Below, one piece after another: positions 23,161 through 24,882 of a stretch of 44,408 nt of DNA. Made by a program: the position numbers and the translations under genes. The stretch is taken from NCBI GenBank assembly GCA_001604585.1, contig LVBW01000048.1, positions 1 through 44,408 of the forward strand, read 5' to 3'. Every line of letters begins with the position of its first letter. Positions within the stretch are counted from its first letter, which is position 1. The stretch is from Puniceicoccales bacterium Verruco_02 (GTDB lineage Bacteria; Verrucomicrobiota; Verrucomicrobiia; Opitutales; Oceanipulchritudinaceae). Below the pieces are notes generated by a model. The model was given only the letters and a program-made list of their open reading frames with translations. It did not search any database and was not told where the DNA came from.

Positions 23161-23244
23161 AGGCGGCCCTTGCGTGTCAGTTGCGCCTTGCATGTCGTAA
23201 TGGAAGGCTTGTCACATAGTTGTTTCAGGCAGCCACCATACAGC

Positions 23245-24882
23245 ATGAAACATGAACTGACACTGGTGAGCGATGGGGAACTGGTTGACCACTCTCTGGC
23301 CGGGGAGCGGGATGCGTACGGCGTACTTGTCGATAGGCACAAGGGCGCGGTCTGCGCCGTGGCCTATGCGCTTACGGGCGACTTTGCCCGCAGCGAAGAC
23401 ATAGCGCAGGACGCCTTTGTGAGCGCTTGGAAAGGGCTGCCAGCCCTGCGCGAAAAGGGCAGCTTCCGCGCATGGATCTGTGGTATGACCCGGCGCATGG
23501 CGCTTAATGCCCGGCGCAAACTGGCCCGCTGCCGCCTCGAAGGCATGTCCGAAGAGCTGCCAGCGACGGATGAGCTGCCCCGCGATACGGCCATCAGCAA
23601 AGAAGAGTCCGCCCTCGTATGGGCTGCGCTATCGAATCTGGAGGAAAATTACCGCGAGCCTCTGGTCCTCTTCTACCGCGAGGGCCGCTCCAGTGCGGCC
23701 GTGGCAAAGGCCCTTGGCATTACTGAAGACGCGGCGCGCCAGCGCCTGTCCCGTGGTCGGGGACTTCTGCGCGAAGAGCTGGCCGGGCGCATAGAGGGGG
23801 TGCTCGTGCGCAGCGGCCCCGGCGCAGGCTTCACGGCGGGCGTTCTCGCCGCCCTGCCCGCATACGCCATAGGTGTCGGCTTTGCCGGGGCTACATCCTC
23901 GGCCGCTGCTGCCAGTTTGGGAGGAAGTGGCAAGGCCGCTGGCGGAGCGGGCCTGTTCGCTTCGCTTGGAACCCTGCTTAGCGGGGCCATAGGGCTGGCT
24001 GGCATTGTCCTTTTCATCCGCTACATACGCTCGCCATTTGTGGACAGGTGGACGCGCAGGCTGATACTTCGCGCGGTGGGCATATCGACGGTATTATCGC
24101 TCCTCTTCGGGCTTTGGATAGCGTGGTTCCTTGGTTCAGGAGAGGGAAGGATGCGGGCTATGGGTGTTGAGCCGGAGAACGTGCTGTTTGTCTCCGTCGC
24201 CATATTCAGCTTCCTAAGCGCATTCATGTGCGTTTGGATTTCGCGGGCGGTAAGCAGGCTGATTGAGAAGCACCCCGAACTGGCCAGCAAACGTTCCGGA
24301 GGCAGTGACTACGTTTCGCGCATCCGCTTCCTTGGCCTGCCGCTTGTGCATGTGGCTAGGTCCAAGGTCGGTTTTGAACCGGGCAAAGTGCGCGTGGCCA
24401 AGGGCTGGATCGCCGTCGGGGACCGTGCATATGGCGGACTCGTGGCGCTTGGCGCAGTGGCGGTGGCGCCCTTTGCCCTTGGCGGACTGGCCGTCGGTAT
24501 AGTGCCTGTTGGCGGACTTGCCTTTGGAGTCCTTGCGCTGGGCGGAGTAGCCGCCGGATGGATGGCTTTCGGAGGCTGGGGCCTTGGCTGGCATCTGGCG
24601 ATCGGCGGCTTGGCCATAGCGCACGATGTGGCCATAGGCGGGCTGGCCATTGCGCAGGTGGCTGCATTCGGCTCTGTGGTGTTCGCACCGCTTGCAAACA
24701 GTGCAACGGCATGGGCCGCGCTTATGGACGATGCTGTTGCGGGTGTCCTGTACCGTATGCTGCCCCATGCTGCATGGCTGTCCGTTCTTGGCCTTCCCGC
24801 CCTGATATTCGGCTTCCGTGGCCTGCGCAAGGCGAGGGAAGAGGCCGCAAAGCAGTCCGATAGCAACATGGCGCAGAGATAG
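23245..24882 (+). CDS. ECF-like sigma factor fused to a C-terminal membrane repeat domain
   Basis: A 545-residue protein. Residues about 24-90 are sigma-70 region 2 (including EDIAQDAFVSAWKGL) and 125-178 are region 4 (AVAKALGITEDAARQRLSRG). A Gly/Ala linker follows. Membrane helices lie at about 241-260, 275-296 and 311-332. After a charged loop comes a domain starting LGLPLVHV (about 363) with about six copies of a roughly 10-residue hydrophobic repeat of the form A-x-G-G-L-A-x-G-x-x (about 410-470). A last helix lies at about 508-524. Such sigma-membrane fusions occur in Verrucomicrobiota and some other phyla; their role is unclear. The start at 23245 is preferred over 23170. No separate anti-sigma gene is adjacent. 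Confidence 0.85.
   Translation: MKHELTLVSDGELVDHSLAGERDAYGVLVDRHKGAVCAVAYALTGDFARSEDIAQDAFVSAWKGLPALREKGSFRAWICGMTRRMALNARRKLARCRLEGMSEELPATDELPRDTAISKEESALVWAALSNLEENYREPLVLFYREGRSSAAVAKALGITEDAARQRLSRGRGLLREELAGRIEGVLVRSGPGAGFTAGVLAALPAYAIGVGFAGATSSAAAASLGGSGKAAGGAGLFASLGTLLSGAIGLAGIVLFIRYIRSPFVDRWTRRLILRAVGISTVLSLLFGLWIAWFLGSGEGRMRAMGVEPENVLFVSVAIFSFLSAFMCVWISRAVSRLIEKHPELASKRSGGSDYVSRIRFLGLPLVHVARSKVGFEPGKVRVAKGWIAVGDRAYGGLVALGAVAVAPFALGGLAVGIVPVGGLAFGVLALGGVAAGWMAFGGWGLGWHLAIGGLAIAHDVAIGGLAIAQVAAFGSVVFAPLANSATAWAALMDDAVAGVLYRMLPHAAWLSVLGLPALIFGFRGLRKAREEAAKQSDSNMAQR

Follow-up and report, generated by a model that had tools for sequence, protein, structure and literature searches.

The gene at positions 23245-24882 of the window (the whole stretch of 44,408 nucleotides from Puniceicoccales bacterium Verruco_02 that was analysed here) encodes an ECF sigma factor that carries, on the same polypeptide, a C-terminal membrane module belonging to no family in the libraries searched. 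I propose, at about even chances, a one-component ECF sigma factor that is tethered to the membrane and regulates its own gene, and in which the module acts as built-in sensor and restraint. Comparison with relatives establishes, at the level of sequence, the architecture and its conservation, the mobility of the module, a common promoter and a link to an acyltransferase; I infer that the module is embedded in the membrane, and likewise the topology of its solenoid, the signal and the way in which the sigma part is released. The features of the locus are as follows.

23208..23240, forward strand: predicted ECF promoter of the gene itself (family motif at fixed spacing)
23245..24882, forward strand: complete gene for an ECF sigma factor bearing a C-terminal membrane module, 545 amino acids (open reading frame; relatives with the same architecture)
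23326..23529, forward strand: sigma-70 region 2, residues 28-95 (Pfam PF04542, Sigma70_r2, E 9e-16)
23614..23760, forward strand: sigma-70 region 4, residues 124-172 (Pfam PF08281, Sigma70_r4_2, E 3e-10)
23791..23844, forward strand: juxtamembrane segment after region 4, residues 183-200 (conserved, consensus VEGALxRSxPGRxFTxGV)
23830..24240, forward strand: four predicted membrane helices, residues ~196-215, 236-256, 274-296 and 311-332, the loop from the second to the third being rich in K/R (hydropathy, loop charges, full-length model)
24241..24402, forward strand: R-rich linker and module head motif, residues 333-386 (family consensus YRSRxxFLGLPLVHV...)
24403..24699, forward strand: repeat xxAxGxxAxG, residues 387-485, a predicted beta-solenoid of 9-10 coils (periodicity, AlphaFold2, polarity profile, indels of ~10 residues)
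24760..24822, forward strand: last membrane helix, residues ~506-526 (hydropathy; helix in both models)
24823..24879, forward strand: K/R-rich tail, residues 527-545, expected to be cytoplasmic (net positive charge in relatives)

A single intact open reading frame of 545 codons runs from the ATG at 23245 to the stop codon at 24882. Sigma regions 2 and 4 had been claimed by an earlier sequence-only reading, and Pfam finds both above its cut-off, with the other sigma-70 regions absent, as in ECF (group 4) factors; the NCBIfam ECF superfamily model TIGR02937 (sigma70-ECF) scores 83 bits against a cut-off of 42.9. The protein falls below the cut-off of all narrower NCBIfam sigma families shown, including TIGR02989 (the Rhodopirellula/Verrucomicrobium ECF family), a model spanning the sigma part only, which matches the sigma domain at E 1.3e-21 with a score of 77 under a cut-off of 124.55. 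In the juxtamembrane segment E184, L187, P192, T197 and V200 are invariant in 14 relatives. The C-terminal part then consists of about four membrane helices, the head motif, which is kept alike in sigma-fused, kinase-fused and stand-alone module proteins, a repeat of 99 residues and a last helix.

Beyond residue 180 the protein has no significant Pfam match, and the C-terminal module matched no family in Pfam, NCBIfam or PHROG. Two possibilities that the sequence-only reading had itself raised against its view can be set aside: a known soluble sensor domain, for which there was no match in Pfam, NCBIfam, PHROGs or PDB sequences, and two proteins joined by a frameshift or accidental fusion, which is rejected because relatives (about 45) keep the identical single-protein architecture. 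A viral or mobile origin was likewise rejected, as viral contigs held no relatives and the protein had no PHROG or PADLOC match. Rfam has no family within the window. Both neighbours were checked and no anti-sigma gene adjoins the gene in the window, in agreement with what had been noted before: the upstream flank is a PTS enzyme-I-like (ptsP-like) gene and the downstream flank a trans-2-enoyl-CoA reductase (FabV-like) gene. The idea that the C-terminus of this ECF sigma factor anchors it in the membrane is well supported by the relatives, by hydropathy and by the absence of an anti-sigma neighbour, and the earlier statement that the repeat resembles domains of Verrucomicrobiota sigma factors is borne out by the relatives.

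Three helices had been placed before the repeat; hydropathy and loop charges favour four instead, of which the first (196-215) is the least certain. Across 14 proteins the mean number of K+R per protein is 4.1 in the helix 2-3 loop, 0.8 in the helix 3-4 loop, 10.0 for the linker that leads into the module, and 4.3 for the tail. All 25 sigma-fused proteins scored, and 8 of 10 kinase-fused ones, have a tail of net positive charge. The last helix, also expected from the earlier reading, appears in hydropathy and as a helix in both AlphaFold2 models. Judged by charge alone, and taking the sigma domain to be inside, four helices would lead to a linker in the cytoplasm, the repeat would cross the membrane and the last helix would return. 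If four helices do precede it, the repeat must cross once because the K/R tail follows the last helix.

The repeat itself is real, but its extent had been given as about six copies at residues 410-470, whereas it covers residues ~387-485 in 9-10 ten-residue units, each of two pentads (GGLAx-GxxAx), the last units being 11 residues long. Identity exceeds that of composition shuffles at lag 5 (z 4.4, reached by 1 of 2000 shuffles) and at lag 10 (z 4.8, reached by 0 of 2000). Residues 395-449 of the window protein are devoid of D/E/K/R/H/N/Q. The median length of the longest polar-free run is 55 residues for sigma-fused proteins and 62 for kinase-fused ones, against 14 in a background of 381 other open frames from the fetched loci, a comparison that is conservative because this background includes a few unrecognised members of the module family. 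In a coil-by-coil profile computed for the sigma-fused, kinase-fused and stand-alone sets, all of which look alike, charged and polar residues hardly occur in coils 2/3 to 6/7 and become more frequent towards either end, and W/Y peak near both ends of the repeat. The five-residue glycine phase continues unbroken for ~95 residues with no polar loops, and 19-residue hydropathy windows within the repeat reach 2.05, the level of a membrane helix. Stand-alone relatives have repeat lengths differing by ~10 residues (90 vs 100; 105 vs 115) and two module proteins (L087 and L088) carry a glutamine about every 10 residues along the repeat, so ten residues probably make one coil. A beta-solenoid rises ~4.8 angstroms per coil; the 5-6 apolar coils would span 24-29 angstroms, about the thickness of the bilayer core. 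The repeat thus appears to lie in the membrane, and perhaps to span it.

Structure prediction of the repeat, a check proposed with the sequence-only reading, gave a beta-solenoid and not helices. Given 14 aligned full-length proteins, the window's own and those of 13 relatives, AlphaFold2 produced a model that is poor overall (pLDDT 66), in which the sigma domain is clear and the repeat is beta. From a module-only alignment of 18 sequences it reached a pLDDT of 88, with 93-97 in the repeat, and showed continuous short strands followed by one long C-terminal helix; all five models of the module have pLDDT 85-88. These models predict a beta-solenoid in which 5-6 coils would have hardly any polar residues. 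Near-perfect repeats are known to yield confident beta-solenoids in AlphaFold2, some with hydrophobic residues outside (PMC11795689), a worry that is lessened, though not removed, because the repeats of this family have diverged. A solenoid is also supported independently of AlphaFold by features read from sequence: the phase of the glycines, the indels of ten residues and the spacing of the glutamines.

Structural comparison placed the predicted fold near nothing in particular. Foldseek returned nothing below E 0.95 against the PDB and weak matches only against viral models, and the best VIA-align match, the YadA-like head 3s6l (Z 6.4, rmsd 5.4, 98 residues), from a family with a left-handed beta-roll, is within the usual noise. 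The knotted solenoids of Brevundimonas were set aside as unrelated. The pattern of the midge antifreeze protein, xxCxGxYCxG, resembles the xxAxGxxAxG of the window repeat. The short-coil beta-solenoids (pentapeptide repeat proteins, YadA-like heads and the midge antifreeze protein) are likewise built from units of five or ten residues whose small residues point inward, but they are soluble and polar outside, whereas the window repeat is hydrophobic at nearly every position that is not Gly or Ala. In the pentapeptide repeat family A(D/N)LxX would be expected, yet the outer positions here are hydrophobic and not D/N/S/T, and Pfam finds no pentapeptide match either in the window protein (E up to 1) or among 47 members of the family (E 0.01).

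A profile of the module matched 69 of 384 genomes of the class and 42 of 387 in a sample of the phylum, and in public genomes it also matched in Planctomycetota, Pseudomonadota and Fermentibacterota; viral contigs gave the profile no match. The sigma-plus-module architecture is kept by the ~45 relatives in Verrucomicrobiota, Planctomycetota and Pseudomonadota. The open frames collected, counted with re-fetched copies and contig-end fragments, comprise 46 with sigma and module, 20 with a Ser/Thr kinase and module, and 27 with neither partner. Pfam Pkinase confirms the kinase fusions (E 1e-47 to 8e-54 in the seven scanned), and zinc ribbons on some short module proteins are weak Pfam matches. 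Pfam has no named module in the kinase fusions, and the relatives share no Pfam match other than the sigma domains. Occurrence on kinases, with zinc ribbons and alone is what one would expect if the module served for input or anchoring. The partner types cluster strongly in a tree built from 79 modules (10 changes vs 36 expected under shuffling), and sigma-fused modules group with a few stand-alone or truncated ones, in a tree of which many deep branches are poorly supported. A Gilvimarinus copy and another proteobacterial copy fall inside a verrucomicrobial clade, which suggests whole-gene transfer.

Individual relatives vary on this plan. In the kinase-fused loci of Verrucomicrobiota (L045, L059-L073 and L075-L078; e.g. 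L059:2377-5832, forward strand) the module usually comes directly after the kinase domain, and some of these kinases extend into a beta-helix (NosD-like) or other C-terminal parts. Short proteins of ~130-230 residues (L079-L092) contain little beyond the head motif and repeat, with no evident signal peptide or further membrane helix. At L093:1760-2536 (forward strand) the module follows an N-terminal segment to which Pfam gives no match and which resembles a HAAS-type signalling domain. A frame at L058:3852-6320 (forward strand) holds both module and acyltransferase beside unknown bases, either a fusion or an effect of assembly. The 318-residue sigma-plus-module frame at L031:1477-2430 (reverse strand) lacks region 4 and the membrane helices, and is probably an internal deletion or an assembly collapse.

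Upstream of the sigma-module genes lies a family promoter motif of fixed spacing, TTGTCACC-N16-SCACTTAT. The dyad GTCAC-N18-CACT precedes 23 of 45 distinct sigma-module genes against at most four in shuffled sets, all 21 of the seed sites share the identically spaced form TGTCAC-N17-SCAC(T/A), and a weight matrix puts 39 of the 45 genes, the window's included, above the 99% control. In the window the site consists of TTGTCAC (23209-23215), 17 bp and CCACC (23233-23237), with the ATG 8 bp further on; it is weak, at 11.2 of 29.5 bits where the 99% control is 7.5, but correctly placed. A strong site is present in Gilvimarinus gilvus (L057), a relative that can be cultivated. Sites before sigma-module genes usually end a few to ~25 bases ahead of the start codon, and because they end so near to it the mRNA would be almost leaderless. 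A bipartite promoter of its own, and with it autoregulation, is therefore present as a prediction, as in ECF factors. Genome-wide, the strict motif has 8 sites against 7 for its reversed control in 286 genomes, so that only its placement is significant: five of the eight lie at sigma-module genes or their acyltransferase operon. A looser pattern applied to eight chosen genomes gave 9 sites and 0 control matches, with 6 of the 9 at sigma-module or acyltransferase loci; of the remainder two precede small paired membrane proteins in one genome (G101) and one is unexplained. The two G101 sites (L151:2015 and 5279, forward strand) are near-identical copies of the motif before similar small membrane proteins, which are possible further targets of the sigma factor. 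A whole-genome search of the window's own genome (G000) yielded no convincing further targets, its other pattern matches being unlike promoters.

The promoter also marks a candidate target. Promoter and acyltransferase link both extend the earlier sequence-only reading, as does the presence of the module on kinases. Of 49 loci, 22 (19 of 46 distinct) have a gene for an OpgC/MdoC-like membrane acyltransferase as neighbour, which lies immediately downstream or else is divergent and preceded by a gene for a CIA30-like secreted protein; no such neighbour stands beside kinase-fused or confirmed stand-alone modules. An ABC transporter was considered as the conserved neighbour and rejected, the recurrent neighbours being the acyltransferase and the CIA30-like protein. 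All 12 CIA30-acyltransferase operons carry the promoter motif on the coding strand, within 100 bp of the first in-frame start in 11 of them (~430 bp in L052), and these sites were not used in building the weight matrix. The acyltransferase shares a superfamily with OpgC/MdoC (Acyl_transf_3, E 2e-25), and it matches NCBIfam NF003014 (MdoC) at E 3e-42 with 145 bits, below the equivalog cut-off of 338; its function may be called only similar to that of the OpgC/MdoC glucan acyltransferase. The neighbour that recurs in relatives is absent from the window's locus. The only OpgC-like homologue found in the window's genome (C25:6507-7580, reverse strand, 27% identity) lies ~2.7 kb from another ECF-like sigma gene (C25:3293-3841, reverse strand).

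Membrane-fused ECF factors are known, namely ECF48, ECF52 and ECF53 of Actinobacteria and IutY/ECF243 of Pseudomonas putida, the last activated or released by proteolysis, yet membrane-tethered sigma factors are few and the activation mechanism is proven for one only (reviewed in PMC8999054). Like the window protein, these join a C-terminal membrane part to regions 2 and 4 in one polypeptide and need no separate anti-sigma gene, unlike the canonical ECF factor with its adjoining anti-sigma gene, in whose place the window has the ptsP-like and FabV-like neighbours. What sets them apart is a membrane part of one or two helices and a zinc-finger or anti-sigma domain, which in the ECF48/52/53 kind stands between the sigma part and the membrane. 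No such Pfam domain occurs in the window protein, whose family, found mainly in Verrucomicrobiota, combines about five helices with a repeat that is hydrophobic and solenoid-like. ECF41 also has a fused regulatory domain, with a promoter (-35 TGTCACA, -10 CGTC) before the sigma gene and one neighbouring gene (PMC3426412). Its -35 element is close to the TGTCACC of the window family, whereas its -10 differs from the SCAC(T/A) of the 21 seed sites. The ECF41 extension is SnoaL-like and soluble; the window protein has no Pfam match to a SnoaL-like C-terminal domain, and the extension of its family is a membrane module.

How might such a protein work? The cytoplasmic sigma part would be tied through the juxtamembrane segment to the four helices and the C-terminal repeat module, which would replace a separate anti-sigma factor as sensor and restraint. 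The repeat would form a narrow solenoid in the inner membrane, with the head motif and coil 1 cytoplasmic and coils 7-10 probably at the outer face, and the last helix would return the K/R tail to the cytoplasm. It is plausible, as the earlier reading held, that a sigma factor so placed has to be released or to receive a signal from the membrane side. Some change to membrane or envelope might alter the module and free the sigma part for RNA polymerase, through a new conformation of the still tethered protein or through cleavage beside the first helix. Once active, it would read TTGTCACC-N16-SCACTTAT and raise its own gene and, in many relatives, the OpgC/MdoC-like acyltransferase gene or operon, often with the secreted CIA30-like protein; the acyltransferase output would then alter envelope glycans. 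That the repeat is an upright transmembrane beta-solenoid with lipid on its flat hydrophobic faces, and an exchangeable sensor shared by sigma factors and Ser/Thr kinases, is a possibility I put forward tentatively, at clearly less than even chances.

Two other views of the repeat concern its form. Gly/Ala-rich helices are common in membranes, and the repeat's hydropathy reaches their level (up to 2.05), so several glycine-rich alpha-helical hairpins would make the protein a polytopic tethered sigma factor of no unusual fold. The low pLDDT (66) of the full-length model and the bias of AlphaFold2 towards beta-solenoids on repeats (PMC11795689) lean the same way. I nevertheless think this unlikely, as the unbroken phase of five over ~95 residues leaves no polar loops, indels and stacking of ~10 residues misfit a helix of 3.6 residues per turn, and five of five module models score 85-88. 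A solenoid lying flat on the membrane or packed in an oligomer, a scaffold on which sigma factors or kinases gather and not a sensor, would suit a module found on two unrelated outputs and also alone, without other membrane helices; its hydrophobic faces could be buried between subunits, the best VIA-align match (Z 6.4) being the head of a trimeric adhesin. Polar ends around an apolar middle are instead what is expected of coils that cross the membrane, and, given four preceding helices, the K/R tail requires the repeat to cross once, which leaves the scaffold rather doubtful.

The remaining alternative accepts the tether and denies the sensor: the sigma factor would be constitutively active at the membrane, or freed by general turnover, with the module a mere localisation tag and the promoter keeping a constant level. 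Autoregulation alone is common in ECF systems (PMC3426412), as this account needs. A tag would not call for the conserved head motif and juxtamembrane segment, nor for fusion of the same module to kinases, and I regard this account as improbable.

The family is widespread and comes with a predicted promoter and target in hand, so that a reporter can be built (TTGTCACC-N16-GCACTTAT-lacZ). If the repeat truly spans the membrane as a solenoid, it would be a new fold class for membrane biology, a class of membrane protein apart from helix bundles and beta-barrels. Since the module is also found on Ser/Thr kinases, knowing what it responds to would account for two routes of signalling in Verrucomicrobiota.
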